13,155 nt of DNA from a bacterium (GTDB lineage Bacteria; UBP6; JAFGXH01), in NCBI GenBank assembly GCA_027064085.1, contig JAMOQH010000072.1:1-13155 (forward strand), read 5' to 3'. Positions 1-13,155 of this stretch are shown here, one piece after another. The translations under genes were made by a program, and so were the position numbers. Under the pieces are notes generated by a model. It was not told the origin of the DNA, ran no database searches, and worked only from the letters and a program-made list of their open reading frames with translations. Numbering within the stretch: the first letter of the stretch is position 1; every line of letters begins with the position of its first letter.

Positions 1-1437
1 AATATTTGCTTCGATATTTAAAGGAATATGCAAGTCAATTTCTGTTTTAAATGTACATTTCCCTGTAGATTCATCTCTATCACCACAAATAATAGGAGAT
101 ATTTCTTGTTCTCCCACATCACCTTTTACAATTGTATTTTCATATTTGAATCTAAAATCTTTGTTTGCATCTAATAATCTTTGTGAAAATGAAGCATGAT
201 TAAAGAATAATGTATAATTTTCAGAAGTTGGATTTGATTGAGCCATAAATTCAAAGTTGTCATTTTCATCTTCAGCTCTATCTTTGAGGTCTTTATTGTT
301 TTTCCATGAGGTGAGCCAACTGTCTTGATTCCATAATTGAGCAATTATAACTCTTGTTTTAACATCTCCACCTTGATTAAGCATATTGGTAATTTTATAT
401 TGGTTACGGTCTTCATTAATATTGGTTGGATGAATTAAAGTAAATTTGGATTCATAAGTCCAGGATACAGCATTTATCTCACTAGTTGCATTATTTAAAC
501 TATTTGCAATACTGTTCCATGCAGTTTCTCCATCGGTGAATAGTGATATTTTATTTCCTTTGAAAAATGGAGTGGAAGTTGGAGCAAACCATTTGTGAGC
601 AACACCAATATAAAAAATATTATGCCAATTTGGAATCATTTCATTAGGTTCTTCTTTTAAGTAAACATAAGTATGTTTTGTAACAGGGTAGTCATCATTG
701 TTATCTAAATTTATAAGAGAAACACTCTCTTCATTTATTCCATTTTCTTGGTTTTCACCAGAATAATGAAATTTAAACTCAAGTGGAAAATAATCTTCGG
801 AAGTTATAGTTAATATATAGTCTCCTGCTTCAAGTAAATTATAGTCAAAGTTAAAGCTGTCTATATCTATATCTTCATTACCTCTTTTTAATATTACTGT
901 AAAATTGTCAAAATTTAGTGGTCGCCCCCATTGATCAATTATTTTTAATGTCAATTTACTACCCATAAAAACGGAGCATAAGGCACCATCATAACCTGTT
1001 TCACAATTACATATAGCGGTTCCTGATTCATCACTACAATTCCCATGCTCTCCACAATCTAAACCAGCTGTTTCACATGTTCTTTTACAAATTTGATTGT
1101 TATCATTATCTTGATAGCCTTCATCACATGAATCACATTGTGAACCTTTGTAGCCATTTGGGCATTTACAAGTGGCTTTATTATTTTCGACTTGGCATTT
1201 TCCAGTACCACAATCAATTCCAATACAAGAATTTCCATTTTCTTCACAAGTTAAACCTGTTTTGTGAAATCCTTCGTTGCAAATACATGTTGCTTTTTCA
1301 TTAATAATCTTACAAATACCATTACCACCACAATCAACATTATTACAGGTTACTTTTGTTCTTTGAGGAGTAGAACCATTATTGCATGAAACAATAAAAA
1401 AACTGAATGCTATTAATATATAATAAATAAATTTCAT
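1..1437 (-). CDS. EGF-repeat lipoprotein with phospholipase D-like domain (3' end beyond window)
   Basis: The 479 visible codons run open off the left edge, so the C-terminus is missing. The protein begins with a lipoprotein signal peptide whose lipobox IVSC gives Cys18 as the lipidated residue. Residues 31-155 hold about three EGF-like modules, recognisable by VDCGGNGIC, IDCGTGKC and LDCGEHGNC. Residues 160-260 look like a beta-rich domain. From about 292 the sequence resembles the N-terminal half of a phospholipase D fold: GETAWNSIANSLNNATSEI followed by VSW, then GGDVKTRVIIAQLW. The catalytic HxKxxxxD motifs would lie just beyond the window, so activity cannot be confirmed. An AGGAG ribosome site lies 5 nt before the ATG and overlaps the stop codon of the upstream lipin-like gene, so both are probably made from one mRNA. 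The lipoprotein and EGF parts are clear; the phospholipase D call is moderately sure. Confidence 0.68.
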   Translation of the reverse strand, partial: MKFIYYILIAFSFFIVSCNNGSTPQRTKVTCNNVDCGGNGICKIINEKATCICNEGFHKTGLTCEENGNSCIGIDCGTGKCQVENNKATCKCPNGYKGSQCDSCDEGYQDNDNNQICKRTCETAGLDCGEHGNCSDESGTAICNCETGYDGALCSVFMGSKLTLKIIDQWGRPLNFDNFTVILKRGNEDIDIDSFNFDYNLLEAGDYILTITSEDYFPLEFKFHYSGENQENGINEESVSLINLDNNDDYPVTKHTYVYLKEEPNEMIPNWHNIFYIGVAHKWFAPTSTPFFKGNKISLFTDGETAWNSIANSLNNATSEINAVSWTYESKFTLIHPTNINEDRNQYKITNMLNQGGDVKTRVIIAQLWNQDSWLTSWKNNKDLKDRAEDENDNFEFMAQSNPTSENYTLFFNHASFSQRLLDANKDFRFKYENTIVKGDVGEQEISPIICGDRDESTGKCTFKTEIDLHIPLNIEANI

Positions 1438-1448
1438 ATTTACTCCTA
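1438..1448 (-). promoter_or_regulatory. Ribosome site overlapping the upstream stop codon
   Basis: On the minus strand the sequence AAATAGGAGTAAATATG places the TAG stop of the lipin-like gene inside the AGGAG ribosome site of the phospholipase D-like gene. Only 8 nt separate the two coding regions. This favours translational coupling and a fixed ratio of the two proteins. The junction between the thioredoxin-like gene and glyA has almost the same layout. Confidence 0.7.
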
Positions 1449-3041
1449 TTTAGGTAATTTAGTTAAATGTAGTGGGTAATCTTCTACAGGAGTAGAACAG
1501 TCTTTTCCTGCATTTTCGCCAATTATAAATATTCGGTTACAATCAGTTCCTATGTATTTATATGCTGAAATATCAGTAAGAGCATTACCATAGGTATAAC
1601 TAAATTTAACACCTTTGTTTGTGAGGGATTCCAGATAACCTTTTTTGTATGTTTCTGCATCAAAATTACCGTTGGGGATTGCTCCTTCATAAGCATGCAT
1701 TAAACCGAGAGGAAACCCTTTTTCTACAAGCCATACATAAGACATTTCTGTAAGCCAATATGGTCTTGCTGTTACATATATAATTTCATAACCTCTTTGG
1801 TAATAATAATTTGCTATTTCGGGGGCTCCAGGGTACATTTCCATATCTCGACTACCATCCCACAGACTAGTAACATAAGTAAGTGTAACTTGACTATCAT
1901 CTGTGGTTAATGTTCCATCCATATCAAAAACTACCATTTTTAATTGTTCATTGTTTGGTTTTACTCTTATGTACATATTTGTACTAATTCCGTCTTTTTT
2001 CATGTATAGTTTTATAAGATGTAAGCCAATAGGTAATTTTTGTTCCATAGGAATATTATAGTTTATCATTCCTCCTTTGCTTTCTGTTGCACAAAAATCA
2101 TCTGCATCATATTTACTCTGATCATTATCGCATGTTGTAGTGTCTCCAATATATTTCCAATGTGGTGTTTCATCGGTATATGACCATATATAAATGGAAA
2201 CTTCTTCATTTTGACGGTTTTTTCTAAAATCTCCATATTCAAAATTACCCATAATAAATTGAGATTCATTATCATTAAAAATCATATCATAACCATTATA
2301 ATGAGGATTATGACTATCATCAAAGCCGTTTCCGTGTTCCAAATTCAAATTGTGAAAAGCAATTGCTTCTTCTTGATTTTCTTCTCCATCTATGTAAGTT
2401 TTAAATAATGGTAAAATAGGTCTTCTACACATACCATTTACAAGAACATGGTTATTATCGCATTCACAATGGAAATCTGTTGCTGAGTCTGAAATACAGG
2501 TTGTTTCTCCTAGGCCACAGTTAACTTTATAGCAAGGATTTACACATTGGTTGCTTTCTTCAAAATAACCTTCTTCAAAGCTACAGTTTGCTACACAATT
2601 AAAATTATCTGCACTTGTTCCTTGACATATTAAACCAATTCCACAATCAATGTTTTCACAAGGATTTATGCAATTATTATTTTCATCTGCAAAGGTTCCT
2701 ATTTCGCAATCTGGAGCCTCACACTTTACTTCTGTTTCACTGACTACAACACAAGTTCCATCACCACAGTCAATATTTTCACATGGTTCTTTACATGAGT
2801 TAGTTATTTCGTTATATACTTTAGGCATAATACAAGTTGGTTTAGTGCATTCATATTTTACAGCACTAATGGCTTTGCATTCTCCTTCACCACAATCAAT
2901 GTCTTCACAAGGATTAATGCAGTTTCCTGATTCGTGATAAAAACTGCCATTAGGACATTCTATATTTGTTTGACTTGTGTTATCACCACAAGAGAACATA
3001 GCAAAAATAATTGCTATAATAAAAATTGAAAAAAATTTCAT
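1446..3041 (-). CDS. Cysteine-rich lipoprotein with C-terminal lipin/LNS2-like HAD phosphatase domain
   Basis: This 531-residue protein starts with a lipoprotein signal peptide (MFSC, Cys18; the lipobox is slightly off consensus). Residues 28-205 contain four cysteine modules built on the theme NPCENIDCG. Residues 210-365 form a beta-rich, possibly Ig-like linker. Residues 368-510 form a HAD phosphatase domain: DMDGT (373-377, nucleophile Asp373, acid/base Asp375), YVTARP (422-427, motif II Thr424), a lysine pair at 466-467 suited to motif III, and YGNALTD (484-490, acidic motif IV). The spacing, the GYEIIYVTARP stretch and the GNALTDISAY stretch resemble the LNS2 domain of lipins and Nir2/RdgB, which in lipins removes phosphate from phosphatidate. 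A surface acid-phosphatase role is the main alternative. It is the first gene after its promoter and leads into the phospholipase D-like gene. HAD fold is near certain; the lipin-type substrate is inferred. Confidence 0.78.
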   Translation of the reverse strand: MKFFSIFIIAIIFAMFSCGDNTSQTNIECPNGSFYHESGNCINPCEDIDCGEGECKAISAVKYECTKPTCIMPKVYNEITNSCKEPCENIDCGDGTCVVVSETEVKCEAPDCEIGTFADENNNCINPCENIDCGIGLICQGTSADNFNCVANCSFEEGYFEESNQCVNPCYKVNCGLGETTCISDSATDFHCECDNNHVLVNGMCRRPILPLFKTYIDGEENQEEAIAFHNLNLEHGNGFDDSHNPHYNGYDMIFNDNESQFIMGNFEYGDFRKNRQNEEVSIYIWSYTDETPHWKYIGDTTTCDNDQSKYDADDFCATESKGGMINYNIPMEQKLPIGLHLIKLYMKKDGISTNMYIRVKPNNEQLKMVVFDMDGTLTTDDSQVTLTYVTSLWDGSRDMEMYPGAPEIANYYYQRGYEIIYVTARPYWLTEMSYVWLVEKGFPLGLMHAYEGAIPNGNFDAETYKKGYLESLTNKGVKFSYTYGNALTDISAYKYIGTDCNRIFIIGENAGKDCSTPVEDYPLHLTKLPK

Positions 3042-3066
3042 TTATACCTCAAAAATATACATCATT

Positions 3067-3095
3067 ATTATAATCGGAATTATAATAAAATTCAA
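3067..3095 (-). promoter_or_regulatory. Sigma-70-type promoter for the lipin-like/phospholipase D-like pair
   Basis: On the minus strand a TTGAAT -35 box (3090..3095) and a perfect TATAAT -10 box (3067..3072) are separated by 17 nt. Transcription would start about 20 nt upstream of the ATG, and a GAGGT ribosome site (3046..3050) lies 4 nt before it. The -10 region sits in the dyad ATTATAAT-CGGA-ATTATAAT (3067..3086), which may be an operator or just AT-rich chance. Confidence 0.6.
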
Positions 3096-3223
3096 TCTTT
3101 TCCATTAAATTTTAGAAATTCTTTATGAATTATCTTATTTTTTCCAAAAATATCTAAAAGATATAATGATTTTAAAAAAACTATAACTCTTTGTAATATG
3201 GTAATCATTATTTATGAGCTTAT

Positions 3224-3298
3224 ATGAAAAGGTTTATGTTAAGTTTAGCTATTTTATTATTAATAACTCAATTTCTTTATGGAGATAAAAATAACTAA
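3224..3298 (+). pseudogene. Remnant of a small secreted protein: signal peptide only
   Basis: A 24-codon reading frame encodes MKRFMLSLAILLLITQFLYG followed by DKNN and a stop. Sixteen of its first 20 residues match the signal peptide of the protein at 4958..5197, and similarity extends a little upstream of the ATG. A signal peptide that ends at once is unlikely to be functional. This is best read as the decayed 5' end of a duplicated gene. It lies in the 274-nt gap between two lipoprotein genes, which otherwise holds only the promoter of the lipin-like gene. A tiny exported peptide cannot be ruled out. Confidence 0.6.
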
Positions 3299-3315
3299 TA
3301 GTTGTTTACTAACAT

Positions 3316-4803
3316 TTAGTCTGTTATAGGAATACAAATACTTGATAGGTTATCATTTTTTCTTTTATATCCCGTTTTACAAATGCACATGTATTCAGTT
3401 TCACTAAGTTTTCTACATGTTGCAAAACTAGAATCTCCACAAACAGTATTTACAGTACTGTCATTATTGTAACAAGGGCTTGGATATATTGCGTCATTGC
3501 ATTTTGGACCATCATTTACTTTACCATTACTACAAAAACATTCTGGAGCTACTTCTTGTCCACTACCGCCACCAGTAGTTGAAACATGACAAACTCCTGA
3601 TGAGTTTGTACATTCTGACATATTCTCACAAGGGGTAGTGCAAGTGATATTATCAATATCATGTTCATCACATATTTTATCATTTTCTAAATTACAAGTA
3701 TCGCTTATTACCCAATTATTTCCATTGCAATTTTCAACTTTTGTGTAGTCATCACTACATCTTTTTATTCCATAGTCTTCACTATTACAAGTATTTATAG
3801 GGTTACAAGGATTAGTTTCGGTTGTTGGGTTTGAATCTGCTGTTTGATAACCTTGTACACAGGTACAATCATTGCTAGCTTCTACCGGTATAGAATGAGG
3901 TGGACAATATAGTTGTGGTGCGGCTGGTTCACACACAAAAGTAGTTACATTGCATATTTCGTCTGTTTCACATGCTGTTACTCTCCATGTATTGCCTGTT
4001 GTATTACATTCTTCAACGGATTTACCATCAGCAGAACATCTTTTCTCTCCTACTGTACAAGTAGTTGCTGTATTAGCTTCGCATTTATTATCTATGGGGG
4101 CATTATTAAAAATATTACAATAGTAGTTATCTCCAAATTTTTTGTTATTATGGCAATTTTCATCGGTTAAACATTCTACACAAGGAGAAGTAATATTCTC
4201 ATCTACATGTATATAACCTTCATTACATACACATTCATAATCTGTATCATTTAGTACTTTGCAGGTAGCATTATCGCAATAAATATCTTGGCAAGTATTT
4301 ATTGTTATTTCAACACATTCTCCGTTACCGTTTTTAGGTTCATATCCCGCTTCACATATACAAGAGTAAGAGGAATCTCCACCTCCCATAGCATCAGGAG
4401 CACATATTTCATGTTTATCTGTATTACAACCATTTCCATTATTGCATTCAGAAATACATTCTCCTTCATTACATGTTTCATTTTCTGCACAATCAGATTT
4501 TTGTTTACAACTTGCTTCGCAAACTTTATCTTTATTACAGTATTTATCATTAGGGCAGTCTGATTTAATGTTACAAGTATTATCTCTACAATAATGTATT
4601 ACTATATCGCAGTATTCTGTATTTGTACAATTTGAATCTTTATCACATTGCTTAATATCTTTTTTGAGAATACAGTGATTAGATTCACAAATAGTATCGC
4701 TAGGGCATTGAGTATCATTTTGACATTCTATTTGATCTAAATTTAGGTTAGAACAAGAAACATAGAATATAGCTAAAAACAAAACGAATAAAATCTTAAA
4801 CAT
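3316..4803 (-). CDS. Cysteine-rich surface lipoprotein with dickkopf-like and EGF-like repeats
   Basis: This 495-residue protein has a lipoprotein signal peptide (YVSC, Cys17) and about 60 cysteines, roughly 12 percent of residues. Residues 27-120 hold four short tandem modules spaced like CQNDTQCPSDTICESNHC, similar to dickkopf-like repeats in myxobacterial-type surface proteins. Residues 120-240 are EGF-like (CICEAGYEP, CVCNEGYIH). Residues 249-291 and 339-392 repeat the pattern C-x-RC-SxD-x-VExCN-xx-W-xxxxC. Two further EGF-like modules end the protein. No catalytic domain is visible, so the likely role is a surface adhesion or binding stalk. The ATG follows a perfect AGGAGG at 4 nt, which fixes the start. 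The gene has its own promoter. Export and the lipid anchor are well supported; the ligand is unknown. The many cysteines imply disulfide formation outside the cytoplasm. Confidence 0.8.
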   Translation of the reverse strand: MFKILFVLFLAIFYVSCSNLNLDQIECQNDTQCPSDTICESNHCILKKDIKQCDKDSNCTNTEYCDIVIHYCRDNTCNIKSDCPNDKYCNKDKVCEASCKQKSDCAENETCNEGECISECNNGNGCNTDKHEICAPDAMGGGDSSYSCICEAGYEPKNGNGECVEITINTCQDIYCDNATCKVLNDTDYECVCNEGYIHVDENITSPCVECLTDENCHNNKKFGDNYYCNIFNNAPIDNKCEANTATTCTVGEKRCSADGKSVEECNTTGNTWRVTACETDEICNVTTFVCEPAAPQLYCPPHSIPVEASNDCTCVQGYQTADSNPTTETNPCNPINTCNSEDYGIKRCSDDYTKVENCNGNNWVISDTCNLENDKICDEHDIDNITCTTPCENMSECTNSSGVCHVSTTGGGSGQEVAPECFCSNGKVNDGPKCNDAIYPSPCYNNDSTVNTVCGDSSFATCRKLSETEYMCICKTGYKRKNDNLSSICIPITD

Positions 4804-4957: not shown

Positions 4958-5197
4958 ATGAAACGGTTTATATTATATGTAGCAATTTTATTATTAACTA
5001 CTCAGTTTTTGTATGGAGAGAATAAAGATATAAAAACTATAAGAAAGTGGTTTAAAGAAATTAATCAAAAATCAAATCCTAATGAAATTAAATTTTCAAT
5101 GCTAGTAATTAATGATGACCAATATTCTACAGAAGGTGGAAGAATTACAGTATTTTTATCTAAAAAGAAATATAATGAAAAATTTTTATATATCTGA
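4958..5197 (+). pseudogene. Truncated small secreted protein (5' part only)
   Basis: The frame encodes 79 residues with a Sec signal peptide (MKRFILYVAILLLTTQFLYG, likely cleaved after Gly20) and a short mature part containing YSTEGGRITVFL. I recall STEGGEI-type motifs near the start of longer secreted proteins of roughly 150 residues, but cannot confirm this here. After FLSKKK the sequence becomes the start of the HAD gene in another frame, so the rest of the domain appears to be lost. The promoter and ribosome site are intact, and the frame overlaps the next gene by 23 nt, so it may now act mainly as a translated leader. The same 5' end occurs as a remnant at 3224..3298. A genuine short protein remains possible. 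Confidence 0.5.
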
Positions 5198-6035
5198 TTT
5201 AGATAAAACACTATTGAACAATGATGCTAAACTTTCTTTAAACTCAAAAGAAAAAATTGAATTAATATTAAAAAATAATATAGGCTTTACCGTTGCAACT
5301 GCTAGGTCTTATAACTCTGTGAAACAGATATTTAAAGGAATAAATTTAGAATATCCAATTATTGAATTAAATGGTACTATGTTAACTGATTTTAAAACGG
5401 AAAAACATCATAGTATTAACGATATTGACTATAAAATAATAAAAAATATTACTGATTATGCTAAAACTTTATCTTTGTATCCATTTTATACTATTATTGA
5501 TATGAAAAATGATGAAATCTGTAATTTATATCCTCCTGCAGTTATAAATAAAGGAAGTCAATGGTTTATTGATGATAGAGAAATTAATCATGACTCAAGA
5601 TTAGTCAAAAATGCAGTTGATTTAGAAAATCTTAAAAATAAAAACTTTTTATCTATGACTTTTATTTATCATTACGATGAAGTTTTTAAATTAAAAGAAT
5701 ATATTGAAGCTTCTGGTTTTATTAATGAAATTAGTATTGATTTTTTTGATAATCCATACTCTAAAGAATGGCAATGGTTAACTATTTTAAGTAATAAATC
5801 CCAAAAAGGAATTGCAGTAAATAAGCTCAAAAGTGTTTTAGAATTAGAAGATTATGAAATTATTGCCTTTGGTGATAATTTAAATGATTATAGCATGTTT
5901 GAAGTTGCTGATAGAGCTTATGCTGTTAAAAATGCCAAAGATGAACTTAAAAAAATTGCAACAAAAGTAATAGGATATAATCATGAAAATTCTGTTTTGG
6001 ATTTTATATTAAAAGAAAATAATATAGATTTTTGA
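5175..6035 (+). CDS. Cof-type HAD hydrolase (sugar phosphatase-like)
   Basis: This 286-residue protein has all four HAD motifs: DLDKT (nucleophile Asp8, acid/base Asp10), VATARS (Thr42), SQKG (Lys211) and GDNLNDYSMF (Asp234, Asp238). The C2-type cap between motifs II and III and the overall length fit the Cof/YidA family. These cytoplasmic magnesium-dependent phosphatases act on sugar phosphates, flavin nucleotides or pyridoxal phosphate; the substrate cannot be read from sequence. Upstream in-frame ATGs from 5112 exist, but the family N-terminus (MKNFYISDLDKT) starts at 5175, so I chose that ATG. Its ribosome site is weak, and translation may depend on the overlapping upstream frame. It is the only intact plus-strand gene and is convergent with the glycyl radical enzyme gene; the 81-nt gap between them shows no clear terminator. 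Confidence 0.85.
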   Translation: MKNFYISDLDKTLLNNDAKLSLNSKEKIELILKNNIGFTVATARSYNSVKQIFKGINLEYPIIELNGTMLTDFKTEKHHSINDIDYKIIKNITDYAKTLSLYPFYTIIDMKNDEICNLYPPAVINKGSQWFIDDREINHDSRLVKNAVDLENLKNKNFLSMTFIYHYDEVFKLKEYIEASGFINEISIDFFDNPYSKEWQWLTILSNKSQKGIAVNKLKSVLELEDYEIIAFGDNLNDYSMFEVADRAYAVKNAKDELKKIATKVIGYNHENSVLDFILKENNIDF

Positions 6036-6116: not shown

Positions 6117-9100
6117 TTATAAATAACAACTTCTGTTAATAATAGCCAACTTTAATTCATCTGAAATATTATTAAAATATGAACAATATCCTGCAACTCT
6201 TACCATTAAATACTTGTGCTTTTCAGGGTTGTTATATGCATCAACTAAAATATCTCTATTTATAACATTTGGTTGAAACTGCATTCCACCTTTTTTGAAA
6301 TATGTAGTAATTAAACCTGATAAATTACTTACTCCGTTTTCATTTTGAAATAAGCCTGAATCAATGGTAAAAGTAACGGTTGTTCCATTTGGTGCATAAT
6401 TTGTAAAGTCTAAACTTGCTACAGAATTTAAACTAGACATTAAATCAAGAACTTCTTTTCCATAATGAGGAGCTACTGAATTGGCTAGAGGGGTTCCTTT
6501 AAGGCGTCCTGATGGAAGGGCAGGGGTTCTTAGTCCATAAATAATGTTTACATTGAGAGCATAATATCCTGCTGTATAAATTCCATTTCTAGGGCTATTT
6601 TTAACTGATTTTAAAGAATTTGTAAAAATTTCCATAGTTTTGTTTACCCATTTTTTAGGGTTATCACTAATGTCATCTCCTAGTTTAGGCACCTTGAGTA
6701 ATTCCTTTCTTATAGCTTGATTAAATTCTCCTTTAAAATTATTATCAATCGCTTTGACAATTTCTTCAATTGTATAAAGTTTTTTATTAAAAACTACTTC
6801 ATTAATTGCATTTAAAGAATCTCCTACATCTGTAACTCCAACACCTTGAATCCCAGAACTGTTTATTTTTGCTCCACCTTCAATTACATCCTTTCCTGTT
6901 TTTACACAGTTTTCATAAAGAGATGAAGTTAAAGGAGTATGGAAGCCTTTTTTAAGTTCTTTTTCTATTTTTTGATGGTCTTTTAATATAGAATTAGTTA
7001 AGTTGTTTAAGCGATTTTGAAATCTTTCTAATAATTCATTCATATTTTTGGGATAATTGTAAGAAATATTAGCTTTTCTTTTTAAGTTAAATTTATTCAA
7101 TAATAGAGTGGGTATTTTTTTATTACTTCTCCAGTTGCTATATTTATTTAATATAGACTTAGAAAATTTATTATTCAATTTACCTAAGTTGTATTCAATA
7201 GCTTTATTTGTAATTTTTTCAATATCTGCTAATAAACCAATATTCCATAAATCATCGTTTTGCCCCTTTAAAGCTTGTAAAAAGGGTAGGGCTAAATTAA
7301 CATTTGCACAATCAGTATTACCAAAATGGTCATTTGATGCATTTGGTTCCACACAACCCACAATAGCATAATTTCTTGAATCTTTAATGCTTGTTTGAGG
7401 ATAGTGTTTTTGTAATGTTTTGATATAGATATCATCATTGTAAAGAGCAGGCATAGGAGCTCCATTTATGTAAACTTCTGCTATTCTATCAGTAAACTTT
7501 TTTGGGCTATTTTGATTAATTCTTGCCGTCATATTTACTGCAAGGGGTTGAAGTTCACATATATCAAGAAGCATATAGGATATTTCGTTTGTTGCATTAT
7601 TTCCATTTTTATCTATTCCTCCAAAAGTAAGACTTTGGTCTGTTGATTGGGTTTCAAAAAGTCTTCCTAAGCTTAAGTAAGTATCTCCATCATTTACCAA
7701 AATAGCTTCATCCATTTTTAATACAAACAATGCCAAAAGTTCTTTGGCTTTTTTATAAGTAATGATACCATTTTCCTTATCTTTAAGATAATAAGGATAT
7801 AAAATTTGATCTATTCTTCCAAAAGAAACAGCATTTTCAAATGATTCCATAGAAAGAGCTATTTGTAAAAACATCATAGATTGCAGTGCTTCATAGAATG
7901 TTCTAGCTGGATTTTTAGGGACAAATTTACAAATTTTAGCCATTTTTTCTAGTTCTTGTTTTCTTTCAGGATTAGTTTCATTTAAAGCCTTTTCATATAA
8001 TTCATCAGAATATCTTTCTGCAAAATTTCCTAATGCTTTTAAAGAAATAATTGCAGCTTTATAAAAATCTTTTTTATCTTTATTTGTTTTCATCTCGTTT
8101 TCTATCTCTTTAATAATCCCTATTGTTCCAAGTTTAAGAATTCGTTCATGATTTACTACAAAATGTACTATTGCTGCCAAGTTATTATTAAATCCTGCAC
8201 TTAAATCAGATGCACGAGATAACATAGTTATAAGATCTTTAATTCCTGGAGTTGCTTTTCTTATTAGAGAATGTTTAAACCAAAATGGAAAAATTTCTGT
8301 ATAAAAGGTGAGTTTATCTTTTTTTGAAATTTTAAAGGGAATAGGTTTTTGTTTATCTATTTGATGCATTATTGATGCTAACATAATACCATAATGTTCT
8401 TCCCAAACTTGTCCGCCAACTCTTTTGGAAGTAAAATTTCCAACAAGTAATTCATCAGGATAAATATTAATGCTTTTATTTTTTAATACATAGGCAAGTC
8501 TTTCAGCTCTATGAATAGTTGTTGCTTTATTAAATCCATTTTTTTTGTAATATTGTGTTTTTAATTTTGAGCTTTCTATACATAAGTGGTAGTCACTTTC
8601 TCTTATTGTGTTTTGAATTTTATAAACACGGTTAGTAAAAATTGCTTTTTTAGGTGATGGATTTAAATTTTCATTTAGAGCAGAAATTCCAAATAATTTA
8701 AATTGTTTAACAGATTTTAAAAGAGCTTTAAGGCTTTCTTCTGGAGTAATATTTAAATGTTTTTGCTCAATTCCTAAATCACTAGCCTTTTTTTCATACA
8801 TATTGTGATATTTTAATAATTCAATAGAGTTATAATTAATAGATTTTAAAAAATTAGCAGTTGCTTTAATTGTACTGTTCATATCATTAATATTTGGTAT
8901 TATAACCATTCTAAATTGAATATTTGCCTTCAAATTTAATAAGATTTTAATGTTTTTATTAATTAATGTAGTATTTTGTTTAGTATATTTTTTATGAAAT
9001 CTTTCATTACCAACAATTTTTAAATCAAGTAAGAATAAATCAATATATGGGGCAAGTTTTTCAATATTTTTTGAAGGAACATGAAGAGCTGTTTCTACTG

Positions 9101-9515
9101 CAATATGTATATCGTGTTTTTTTAGCACTTTAATTAGAGTAATTAAACTATCAGGGTCTTGCAATAATGGGTCACCACCACTTAAAGTAACTCCACCATC
9201 TGTTTTGGTAAAATAATCTTTATCTTTCAATACAATATTTACTATATTTGAAACAGAAAACTTATTATTTGCTTCTGTAGATATAGATTTTCCTTCTGGG
9301 TTTTGACACCATAAGCAATTTAATGCACAACCTTGAAAAAAAATTGTTGTACGAATTCCAGGACCATCATGTACACATGACCTTTGAATATCCCATACTT
9401 TTAAGCTTTTTACTTTTTTATCTGTGTTATTAGAGACTTCTTGTTCTTGGTGTAGAATTACAGTCTTGTTATAGTGAATTTTCTTTTTTCTATTATTAGT
9501 GTTTAATACTTCCAT
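6117..9515 (-). CDS. Fused glycyl radical enzyme activase and glycyl radical enzyme (GCVEP type)
   Basis: Residue numbers use the ATG at 9515 (1132 residues). After a basic 40-residue extension, residues 41-285 are a radical SAM activase: VHDGPGIRTT, the cluster motif CALNCLWC (Cys63, Cys67, Cys70) and LSGGDPLLQ. It lacks the ferredoxin-like cysteine insert common in activases of eliminase-type enzymes. From about 292 to the end is a complete glycyl radical enzyme of about 840 residues: PDELLVGN, AVSFGRIDQ, the active site GCVEP (thiyl Cys721, Glu723) and the radical loop VRVAGY (Gly1109). Cys-x-Glu marks the eliminase/dehydratase branch (choline, diol, glycerol, isethionate and hydroxyproline enzymes) rather than pyruvate formate-lyase, which has Cys-Cys. 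The substrate is not recognisable and no partner enzymes or microcompartment genes adjoin it. It is presumably cytoplasmic and oxygen-sensitive. A single polypeptide carrying both parts is unusual. Confidence 0.88.
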   Translation of the reverse strand: MEVLNTNNRKKKIHYNKTVILHQEQEVSNNTDKKVKSLKVWDIQRSCVHDGPGIRTTIFFQGCALNCLWCQNPEGKSISTEANNKFSVSNIVNIVLKDKDYFTKTDGGVTLSGGDPLLQDPDSLITLIKVLKKHDIHIAVETALHVPSKNIEKLAPYIDLFLLDLKIVGNERFHKKYTKQNTTLINKNIKILLNLKANIQFRMVIIPNINDMNSTIKATANFLKSINYNSIELLKYHNMYEKKASDLGIEQKHLNITPEESLKALLKSVKQFKLFGISALNENLNPSPKKAIFTNRVYKIQNTIRESDYHLCIESSKLKTQYYKKNGFNKATTIHRAERLAYVLKNKSINIYPDELLVGNFTSKRVGGQVWEEHYGIMLASIMHQIDKQKPIPFKISKKDKLTFYTEIFPFWFKHSLIRKATPGIKDLITMLSRASDLSAGFNNNLAAIVHFVVNHERILKLGTIGIIKEIENEMKTNKDKKDFYKAAIISLKALGNFAERYSDELYEKALNETNPERKQELEKMAKICKFVPKNPARTFYEALQSMMFLQIALSMESFENAVSFGRIDQILYPYYLKDKENGIITYKKAKELLALFVLKMDEAILVNDGDTYLSLGRLFETQSTDQSLTFGGIDKNGNNATNEISYMLLDICELQPLAVNMTARINQNSPKKFTDRIAEVYINGAPMPALYNDDIYIKTLQKHYPQTSIKDSRNYAIVGCVEPNASNDHFGNTDCANVNLALPFLQALKGQNDDLWNIGLLADIEKITNKAIEYNLGKLNNKFSKSILNKYSNWRSNKKIPTLLLNKFNLKRKANISYNYPKNMNELLERFQNRLNNLTNSILKDHQKIEKELKKGFHTPLTSSLYENCVKTGKDVIEGGAKINSSGIQGVGVTDVGDSLNAINEVVFNKKLYTIEEIVKAIDNNFKGEFNQAIRKELLKVPKLGDDISDNPKKWVNKTMEIFTNSLKSVKNSPRNGIYTAGYYALNVNIIYGLRTPALPSGRLKGTPLANSVAPHYGKEVLDLMSSLNSVASLDFTNYAPNGTTVTFTIDSGLFQNENGVSNLSGLITTYFKKGGMQFQPNVINRDILVDAYNNPEKHKYLMVRVAGYCSYFNNISDELKLAIINRSCYL

Positions 9516-9521
9516 CATGAA

Positions 9522-9527
9522 CTCCTT
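9522..9527 (-). promoter_or_regulatory. Ribosome site that sets the start of the fused radical enzyme
   Basis: AAGGAG lies 3 nt before the ATG at 9518 and 6 nt before the adjacent ATG at 9515. The open frame extends to a TTG at 9533, but that codon lies upstream of the ribosome site and would be a poor start. Spacing favours 9515, with 9518 a close second. Confidence 0.7.
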
Positions 9528-9543
9528 AGTCAATTATATCATT

Positions 9544-9572
9544 ACTATAACTCAAAAGGACGGACTTGTCAA
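9544..9572 (-). promoter_or_regulatory. Near-consensus promoter of the fused radical enzyme gene
   Basis: On the minus strand a perfect TTGACA (9567..9572) is followed after exactly 17 nt by TATAGT (9544..9549). This is the strongest promoter match in the window and implies a 5' leader of about 20 nt. It shows the gene is transcribed apart from the upstream envelope-protein operon. Confidence 0.75.
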
Positions 9573-9707: not shown

Positions 9708-11228
9708 TTAGTTACCGGCAGGAATACATACTCCATCGCCATAATCTTTGTATCCAGATTTACAAACACAAGAACCATTTCCTGCTCGTCTATAACCTTT
9801 ACTGCTTGGACAAACACATCGACCTTTCCATTCTACTTGTGGACGAGGGCATTTATTTAAGCAGTTTCCCCAATAGCTTATTAGTCTGCATTTTTGGCAA
9901 GTTCCAGACTTTTTAGAAGAATATCCTTTTAGGCATGTGCATTTTTTATACTTGTTTGACCAAGATTGATTTACTCCAGCACAAACACATCTATTGTTTC
10001 GTGACACTTTTCCCGCTGAGCAAATACATTTTCCATTTGAAAAAGTTCCACCTGATAATTCACAAGTTCTTTTATTGTTTTTTTCAATATCCTGGTTTAA
10101 ATTTTCCTTTTCTTTTTGTAATCTTTCCTTTTCTTTTTCTGCTTGTTCTTTTTGTTTTTTTAGTTCTTCAAGCTGTTTTTTTAACTCTTCGGTTTCTTCT
10201 GAAGATGATGTATTTTTAATTTGTTCTTCAATTTTCTTTTTTTCACTTTCCATATTGTTTAGATTTTCTTCAAGACCTTTATTTTCTGATTCTAATTTCT
10301 CTTTATCATTTTCAAGCTTTTTCTTTTCAAATGCTAAACTAGCTTTTTCTGCTTCAAGAGCTTTATTTTTTAAACTTAATCCTTCATTTTCTTCTTGTAG
10401 GTTTCCATATTTTCCGTCTAGTTCGTTATATTTTCCACCTAATTCATCATATTTTCCACCAAGTTGTCCTAATTTACCAGATAAACATTTTCTACTTGCT
10501 CTTTCTCTTTTGGCAACTTCAAAATTATAAATAAAAGTTATACCCCAACTATAATCCCAATTTAGAATTGGTTTTATTGTAAAGCCAGGTGCAAAATATG
10601 TTGAAAAACTAATTGCAGAATTTCTTATTGGAATTGTAAAACCAAGAGGGAAACCTATGCTCATTTTTAGGCTTCTACCATCATCATCTAATTGTGTTCC
10701 TAAAATAAATTTAGTACCATAATCAATATCAAATGATATTACAGAATTTTGATATGGTCTATATTTATGGTTAACACCTAATGATGCTAGAAAGTTTTTA
10801 TTAAAGTCAACTCCGATAATAGATTCCATACTTATGTTAAATGGAAGCCAAAATCTAAAATCAAAACCATTAGGGGTACCAACAATTAATGCCGTATCAA
10901 GAGTGTATGGTTTTGCATAATTTATTGCACAAGTTCTTTTAAAGTTTTCAGCAATAGTTTCTTTAATTTCTTTTCCTACTGATTTTGCAATAGATTTAGC
11001 CGCTTCTTTTTTGGCTGTTTTGGTAACAACATTTTTGGTTTTAGGATGAGACACCGGAGGCACCGCCTTAGTAGGATGAGGCACCGCCTTAGTAGGATGA
11101 GGCACCGCCTCATCCTTACTCTGCACTGCCTTGTTTTTGCTATTTGTTGTTACTTTATTATTACTTACTTCTTGTGCAAATAACATATTTGCACTTAGTA
11201 AAAATAATAGTATTAATATAAACTTCAT
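9708..11228 (-). CDS. Envelope protein: beta-barrel, coiled coil and cysteine-rich tail
   Basis: This 506-residue protein has a Sec signal peptide (likely cleaved after Ala18). Residues 37-61 are a low-complexity repeat (HPTKAVP units) and 68-98 are Lys/Ala-rich. Residues 105-238 alternate polar and hydrophobic or aromatic residues in strand-length stretches with turn motifs, as in a small outer-membrane beta-barrel. Residues 251-277 repeat GKYDELG-like heptads and lead into a highly charged coiled coil (about 278-386). Residues 388-506 hold about 17 cysteines in EGF-like spacing (CICSAG, CVCPSS, CVCKSGY). The barrel probably anchors the protein while the coiled coil projects the cysteine-rich head or spans the periplasm. 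It starts 3 nt after glyA, with GGAG inside the end of glyA, so it is the last gene of that operon. I do not recognise a named family. Antisense frames here are shadows of the Lys/Glu-rich coiled coil. Confidence 0.75.
   Translation of the reverse strand: MKFILILLFLLSANMLFAQEVSNNKVTTNSKNKAVQSKDEAVPHPTKAVPHPTKAVPPVSHPKTKNVVTKTAKKEAAKSIAKSVGKEIKETIAENFKRTCAINYAKPYTLDTALIVGTPNGFDFRFWLPFNISMESIIGVDFNKNFLASLGVNHKYRPYQNSVISFDIDYGTKFILGTQLDDDGRSLKMSIGFPLGFTIPIRNSAISFSTYFAPGFTIKPILNWDYSWGITFIYNFEVAKRERASRKCLSGKLGQLGGKYDELGGKYNELDGKYGNLQEENEGLSLKNKALEAEKASLAFEKKKLENDKEKLESENKGLEENLNNMESEKKKIEEQIKNTSSSEETEELKKQLEELKKQKEQAEKEKERLQKEKENLNQDIEKNNKRTCELSGGTFSNGKCICSAGKVSRNNRCVCAGVNQSWSNKYKKCTCLKGYSSKKSGTCQKCRLISYWGNCLNKCPRPQVEWKGRCVCPSSKGYRRAGNGSCVCKSGYKDYGDGVCIPAGN
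11046..11120 (-). repeat. In-frame palindromic and tandem repeat within the envelope protein gene
   Basis: Two exact 21-nt copies of GCACCGCCTTAGTAGGATGAG (11060..11080 and 11081..11101) and a partial third are translated as HPTKAVP units (the protein starts SKDEAVPHPTKAVP). The end of the array forms a perfect 10-bp stem, AGGATGAGGC / GCCTCATCCT, with a 3-nt loop (11094..11116). It is far richer in GC than its surroundings and resembles the repeats at 13024..13155. Confidence 0.75.
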
Positions 11229-12467: not shown

Positions 12468-12477
12468 TTTTCCTCTA
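12468..12477 (-). promoter_or_regulatory. glyA ribosome site overlapping the upstream stop codon
   Basis: The minus-strand sequence AAATAGAGGAAAAATG embeds the TAG stop of the thioredoxin-like gene in the glyA ribosome site. This suggests translational coupling, with the same arrangement as at 1438..1448. Confidence 0.65.
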
Positions 12478-13155
12478 TTTTAATAAATTAACGATATCAT
12501 TTTCTAGTTTTGCTTCGTTACTATCATAACCTATAGTTGCTTTTAAAATTTTTCCATTACCATTAACTAGAAACATAGTTGGAAAATTTTCAATACTATA
12601 TCTTCTTGAGATAATATTATAACTATCTTTTAAAATAGGAAACTCTAAAGCATTGTCTTTAATAAATTCTTTTACTTCTACGATTTCGTCTTTATCTTTA
12701 TCAGTATTTACTGCAACTATTATTAATCCCTTATTTTTATATTTTTTGTACAGTTTATTTAAGAAAGGTAATTCCTTTTTACATGGTTTGCAATAGTTTG
12801 CGTAAAAAGTAAGTATCAATAATTTTTTCTTTTTATTAGAGTCTGTTCCAACATAATTAGCAATATCAAGCATGTTTACTTTAGCTATTTTATTATTATA
12901 TACTAATGCTCTAAATTCTATTATGGACTTTCCTGCAAGAGGGTGCTTATGGGATAAATGTGATGTTACTTTTTTAGTATCTTCTTTTTTAGCCATTTTA
13001 TCTTTTTTGTCTTGATTTTGCTTGTCTTTTGGATGAGTCAACGCCTCGTCCTTACGCTTATCTTCGTCTTTTGGACGAGTCAACGCCTCGTCCTTACTGC
13101 GCTTATCTTGGTCTTTTGGACGAGTCAACGCCTTGTCCTTACTGCGCTTATCTTG
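12475..13155 (-). CDS. TlpA/ResA-like thioredoxin-fold protein (5' end beyond window)
   Basis: The frame is open to the right edge, giving 226 visible residues. The first ATG-like codon in it is a TTG inside a repeat, so the true start and any signal peptide or lipobox lie outside the window. The first 45 residues are charged tandem repeats (QDKRSKDEALTRPKD). From about residue 80 comes a thioredoxin fold of the TlpA/ResA type: FYANYCKPCKKELP with redox pair Cys122 and Cys125, then GLIIVAVNTDKD, and the cis-proline segment NFPTMFLVNGNGK. Such proteins are usually membrane-anchored outside the cytoplasm and reduce or exchange disulfides. It leads the visible operon, followed at 7 nt by glyA. 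Its shared repeat with the exported protein at 9708..11228 supports an extracytoplasmic location, but that is inference. Confidence 0.82.
   Translation of the reverse strand, partial: QDKRSKDKALTRPKDQDKRSKDEALTRPKDEDKRKDEALTHPKDKQNQDKKDKMAKKEDTKKVTSHLSHKHPLAGKSIIEFRALVYNNKIAKVNMLDIANYVGTDSNKKKKLLILTFYANYCKPCKKELPFLNKLYKKYKNKGLIIVAVNTDKDKDEIVEVKEFIKDNALEFPILKDSYNIISRRYSIENFPTMFLVNGNGKILKATIGYDSNEAKLENDIVNLLK
13024..13155 (-). repeat. Translated 45-nt tandem repeat with internal palindromes
   Basis: Units at 13111..13155, 13066..13110 and 13024..13065 (45, 45 and 42 nt) encode QDKRSKDKALTRPKD, QDKRSKDEALTRPKD and EDKRKDEALTHPKD. Each contains a palindrome GGAYGAG-N7-CTYGTCC, perfect in the middle unit (13073..13093). 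The array continues off the right edge. Unit lengths stay multiples of three, so the frame is kept. Confidence 0.85.

Follow-up and report, generated by a model that had tools for sequence, protein, structure and literature searches.

A single-chain glycyl radical enzyme carrying its own predicted activase, with fused relatives in anaerobic bacteria

A complete radical SAM activase and a complete glycyl radical enzyme (GRE) are encoded as a single polypeptide in the stretch of DNA analysed here (13,155 nucleotides, referred to as the window). The fusion is real and no assembly artefact, and it is apparently an undescribed design, shared by two dozen or more other anaerobes. The protein is best explained as a self-contained GRE, able to install its own radical and to carry out a 1,2-elimination on a small polar substrate; this reading is assigned a probability of roughly two in three. 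On the evidence of the sequences self-activation is likely, while the predicted elimination is the less certain part of the explanation, because the Glu, Asp and His residues concerned are also found in GREs with other reactions. The fold, the type of chemistry and the principle of activation appear to be those of known GREs, and the union of activase and GRE in a single chain would be the new element. In the open-access literature searched, no description of a naturally occurring activase-GRE fusion was found, which is weak evidence of novelty.

Activase and GRE proteins normally bind only briefly, and for this reason it is hard to see in which way the activase reaches the buried glycine, and whether it has to leave again. 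A natural fusion provides a covalent and stoichiometric activation complex for structural work and single-turnover EPR, and possibly a one-gene module for the engineering of radical enzymes. Moreover, the fusion marks a clade of GREs, found in syntrophic and other anaerobes, whose active site is uncharacterised.

Gene structure and sequence features

The original prediction had described a single uninterrupted frame with a complete radical SAM activase and a complete GRE in which the motifs GCVEP and RVAGY are intact, and this description holds. The frame 6117-9515 on the minus strand encodes a single protein of 1132 aa from the ATG at 9515, and the Pfam domains follow each other in the order Fer4_12/Radical_SAM, PFL-like and Gly_radical, all of them well over the curated cut-offs. 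Cys721 had been numbered correctly, and the glycyl residue is Gly1109; the minus-strand orientation had gone unmentioned in the prediction. Upstream, the frame stays open as far as a TTG at 9533; the positions of an AAGGAG and a TTGACA-17-TATAGT sequence favour the ATG at 9515 or at 9518 as the putative start over this TTG. The features are listed below; fractions refer to the at least 27 distinct full-length fusions that were found, the window included, with 25 assigned to clade A, the type of the window protein, and two to clade B.

9544-9572, minus strand: promoter-like TTGACA-17-TATAGT just upstream of the fused gene (11/12; consensus match only)
9522-9527, minus strand: Shine-Dalgarno-like AAGGAG, 6 bases before the ATG at 9515 (sequence)
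6117-9515, minus strand: fused activase-GRE gene, 1132 aa (open frame, Pfam domains, 26 full-length fused relatives)
8673-9410, minus strand: predicted activase domain, residues 36-281, radical SAM, PFL-AE type without ferredoxin insert (Pfam PF04055; structural match PFL-AE 3cb8)
9306-9329, minus strand: [4Fe-4S] motif CX3CX2C, residues 63-70, with C63, C67 and C70 (invariant in 27/27)
8634-8672, minus strand: activase-GRE linker, residues 282-294 (alignable in 27/27; pLDDT above 80; no ATG behind a ribosome site)
6120-8633, minus strand: predicted GRE domain, residues 295-1132, structural match from 287 (PF02901 and PF01228; structural match 1r8w)
8163-8165, minus strand: His451, equivalent to glycerol dehydratase His164 (alignment; invariant in 27/27)
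7830-7835, minus strand: Asn561-Ala562, at the positions of glycerol dehydratase His281-Ser282 (invariant in 27/27)
7683-7697, minus strand: VNDGD loop, residues 607-611, within a 4-residue insertion of clade A (alignments)
7638-7640, minus strand: Asp626, at the position of glycerol dehydratase Tyr339 (invariant in 25/25 of clade A; Gly in clade B)
7344-7358, minus strand: GCVEP, residues 720-724, with putative thiyl Cys721 and Glu723 (invariant in 27/27)
7311-7313, minus strand: Asp735, equivalent to glycerol dehydratase Asp447 (alignment; invariant in 27/27)
6186-6200, minus strand: RVAGY, residues 1106-1110, with putative radical site Gly1109 (Gly invariant in 27/27)

The GRE half combines the characteristics of the GRE superfamily, namely PF02901 together with PF01228, the barrel, the active-site Cys and a C-terminal RVxGY. 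Its best NCBIfam is TIGR01774 (formate C-acetyltransferase/glycerol dehydratase) with 506.7 bits, under the cut-off of 678.2, and against the equivalogs for HypD, CutC, HpfG/HpsG, indoleacetate and hydroxyphenylacetate decarboxylase and PFL it reaches about one third of the respective cut-off or less. The earlier statement that the chemistry is unknown thus stands in so far as no characterised GRE can be assigned, but the chemistry is narrowed by the invariant Cys/Glu/Asp/His set of dehydratases and lyases. The activase half, with its CX3CX2C motif, passes TIGR02494 (GRE activating enzymes) with 198.9 bits at a cut-off of 174.35 and scores 149.9 bits against TIGR02493 (pyruvate formate-lyase 1 activating protein, PFLA), below the cut-off of 231.75. 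The insert of the ferredoxin-domain type of activase, which follows the SAM motif and contains additional Cys clusters, was not found in clade A; it is present in clade B and in the activases of most unfused relatives.

Cys63, Cys67 and Cys70, the SAM-site Asp and Lys, His451, Cys721, Glu723, Asp735 and Gly1109 are present in all 27 fusions, with catalytic roles that are presumably those of the aligned residues in PflA and glycerol dehydratase. The SAM motif GGE is changed to GGD in 10 of the 25 clade A members, the window included, and the equivalent of PflA His202 is altered in two members (kept in 23/25 of clade A). In both halves dN was several-fold below dS where dS was measurable; dS was saturated for several pairs, and the junction of 16 codons is too short to be judged.

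Fused relatives and the junction

Relatives were gathered by a profile (alignment) search of species-representative genomes followed by whole-genome searches, and duplicates were removed. Genome contigs searched with a single protein as query gave no match, and the alignment query succeeded. The search for other fused proteins that had been proposed at the outset yielded at least 26 further full-length fusions with the same junction. The clade A matches of the profile search were listed at 52-64% identity, and their frames clear of contig ends have a length of 1091-1138 aa and contain both halves. According to the whole-genome searches the hosts include Syntrophaceae (15/51 genomes of a single family), several Bacillota and further bacteria, two Bacillota genomes having two copies of the fusion each. 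No unfused clade A member was among the matches found, since all matches with E below 1e-100 were either fused or truncated where a contig ended; in the 5′ fragments L120 and L121 the activase runs into the GRE up to the point where the contig stops. The original reservation that the halves might always be separate in relatives has thereby lost its ground, every full-length clade A member found being fused.

The junction has a conserved length and is alignable across all 27 fusions. An in-frame ATG near the junction occurs in one of the 27, and one with a ribosome site in none of them; the predicted RNA fold at the junction is nothing unusual (z -1.44). A search of viral sequences returned one partial GRE. 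Plasmid matches were discarded as fusions, because their appearance resulted from joined BLAST pieces and the four records that were opened (H1, H2, H18 and H25) contain separate genes.

Predicted structure

The whole chain of the window protein was modelled with AlphaFold2 using an alignment of 73 sequences from the fetched loci, and the model has a mean pLDDT of 90.6 and a pTM of 0.91. Residues 36-281 match PFL-AE (3cb8) with Z 30.3 and an rmsd of 1.9 over 241, and residues 287-1132 match glycerol dehydratase (1r8w) with Z 47.9 and an rmsd of 2.2 over 765. The best structural matches of the GRE half are glycerol and propanediol dehydratases, PFL and benzylsuccinate synthase being clearly more distant. 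By our own estimate from the definition of pTM, random placement of the activase would leave about one quarter of the chain badly scored and give a pTM near 0.7; compared with this value, the 0.91 of the model suggests that the activase has a definite, fixed placement on the GRE.

Phylogeny and origin

Both the GRE tree and the activase tree give clade A full support and place it in one wider group, to which clade B and unfused pairs of Pseudomonadota, Myxococcota and other bacteria also belong. In the unfused relatives L042, L049 and L051 the activase gene is located directly upstream of the GRE gene, with a spacing of 1 nt in L042 and an overlap in L051, and the fusion of such an adjacent gene pair is the simplest and a plausible origin. 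For a single origin of clades A and B an AU p of 0.28 was obtained, which means that it is neither rejected nor demonstrated.

Searches of 27 other genomes from the window's phylum found neither the fused protein nor, with the same query, any PFL-type GRE. The contig itself belongs to the window's lineage, because another genome of this family holds a 57% homologue of the gene at 1446-3041. Taken together, this membership and the absence from the 27 genomes suggest that the fused gene was acquired horizontally. When the window's genome was queried with the fused protein, no other PFL-type GRE was found (class III ribonucleotide reductase is invisible to this query), so that the activase would be without another PFL-type client in this genome.

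Gene neighbourhoods

The neighbourhoods of the fusions were compared, and no enzyme is common to the family, in agreement with the original observation that no obvious pathway partner adjoins the fused gene; the gene apparently forms a unit by itself. In 10 Syntrophaceae genomes a FadR-type regulator is located directly upstream of the fusion, and four Bacillota fusions have glycoside-pentoside-hexuronide transporters nearby; together these are a hint at a sugar- or acid-derived substrate. Two other candidates were dismissed. A link to a one-carbon substrate, via SHMT in the window, MetH/MTHFR in L112 and a corrinoid methyltransferase in L116, is inconsistent and concerns single members, and the HAD phosphatase adjoining the fused gene as a guide to the substrate is absent beside other fusions.

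Some further genes were recorded. The HAD phosphatase of the window is of the Cof-type HAD-IIB (5112-6035, plus strand) and is transcribed convergently to the fused gene; in E. coli, ybiW likewise adjoins a HAD phosphatase. Positions 1-4803 (minus strand) encode three predicted lipoproteins that contain Cys-rich EGF-like repeats; that of 1446-3041 has a C-terminal LNS2/acid-phosphatase-like HAD domain. A coiled-coil protein with repeated KAVPHPT units (9708-11228, minus strand) and a TlpA/ResA-like thioredoxin with repeated KDQDKRSKDEALTRP units at the N-terminus (12475-13155, minus strand) are located on the other side. In L116 (5944-11035, minus strand) genes for a corrinoid protein, a RACo-type reactivase, a UroD-type methyltransferase and a GH92 enzyme follow downstream of the fusion on the same strand.

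Proposed mechanism and alternative explanations

In the proposed mechanism a [4Fe-4S] cluster on Cys63, Cys67 and Cys70 would be reduced by a low-potential flavodoxin or ferredoxin and SAM would be cleaved, after which the 5′-deoxyadenosyl radical would abstract hydrogen from Gly1109 of the same polypeptide or of the dimer partner. The radical would then move from Gly1109 to Cys721, and the thiyl, with help from Glu723, Asp735 and His451, would start a 1,2-elimination of the dehydration or lyase type on a small polar substrate. The fusion would set the ratio of activator to enzyme at 1:1 and make the gene a stand-alone cassette. A small polar substrate other than glycerol is proposed because the Cys/Glu/Asp/His set is kept but His281, Ser282 and Tyr339 of the glycerol dehydratase pocket are replaced; the putative pocket residues Asn561, Ala562 and Asp626 are clade-specific and differ from those of the characterised GREs compared. 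The more far-reaching proposal, with the odds somewhat against it, is that the activase stays docked on its own GRE (in cis or within the dimer) and both loads and reloads it at 1:1, and that these proteins are a widespread, hitherto unrecognised class with a new substrate specificity set by the Asn-Ala/Asp pocket.

It is unlikely, albeit to be taken seriously, that the fusion is without mechanistic meaning and that the activase works between molecules or the chain is cut post-translationally into two ordinary proteins. Several fusion-bearing genomes also have ordinary GRE-activase pairs, and the gene pairs of close unfused relatives abut or overlap, so that the fusion was perhaps a small step; however, all clade A members found across phyla are fused with a junction of conserved length, and the model sets both domains confidently against each other. 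The chance is similarly minor that the GRE half is not an eliminase and instead cleaves or forms C-C bonds or catalyses a decarboxylation. Such a reaction would fit the scores far under the cut-offs of all characterised dehydratase equivalogs and the pocket residues unlike those of glycerol dehydratase, whereas the invariant GCVEP, the invariant equivalents of His164 and Asp447 and the ranking of the structural matches, with glycerol and propanediol dehydratases in front of PFL and benzylsuccinate synthase, argue for elimination.

A degenerate activase half with a structural role only, next to a separate activase that acts on the GRE, is very improbable: the ferredoxin insert seen in most activases of this GRE branch is missing and GGE is replaced by GGD in 10/25, but E. 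coli PflA, an active enzyme, is likewise without this insert, the Cys triad is invariant, as are Asp and Lys of the SAM site, 23/25 retain the His, and dN/dS is low, as in the GRE half. Finally, although the window consists of a single MAG contig, the sequencing or assembly error merging two genes that had been envisaged earlier has next to no probability, a frame error at 8640-8680 being untenable because 26 full-length proteins from other genomes have the same junction.

Comparison with known systems

As a candidate self-activating eliminase, the window protein shares its predicted fold over the whole GRE half with the B12-independent glycerol dehydratase of Clostridium butyricum (1r8w) and GRE propanediol dehydratases (5i2a, 9rco) at Z about 48 and about 30% identity. 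Cys433, Glu435, Asp447 and His164 of glycerol dehydratase correspond to C721, E723, D735 and H451, and the glycyl site is shared as well, whereas the pocket residues His281, Ser282 and Tyr339 are Asn561, Ala562 and Asp626 in the window protein. Unlike these dehydratases, the window protein has the VNDGD loop, a longer insert after GCVEP and the fused activase. E. coli PflA (3cb8) and the window activase are alike in the radical SAM fold, the CX3CX2C motif and the absence of a ferredoxin insert, but PflA is a separate protein with 25-28% identity to the window activase, and in the activase tree the window half is placed beside the activases of its own GRE branch and apart from PflA.

The two clade B fusions, L038 from a marine Proteobacteria MAG and L103 from a Thermoanaerobaculia MAG, have the same domain order and have kept the catalytic residues; in contrast to clade A they retain the ferredoxin insert, have Gly at the position of Asp626 and are without the VNDGD loop. 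The frame of L103 comprises 1489 aa, of which about 390 residues (1886-3067, plus strand) upstream of the activase are probably a non-coding stretch left open by the GC-rich DNA. In the same wider clade, an uncharacterised GRE-activase pair is found on plasmids of Moraxella osloensis (L023:4941-9499) and Acinetobacter towneri (L024:4941-10325), adjoining a beta-propeller protein and near Tn3 transposases. The GRE of this pair has about 35% identity to the GRE half of the window protein and is encoded first, followed by a separate gene for an activase with ferredoxin insert, whereas in the window both functions are united in one gene.
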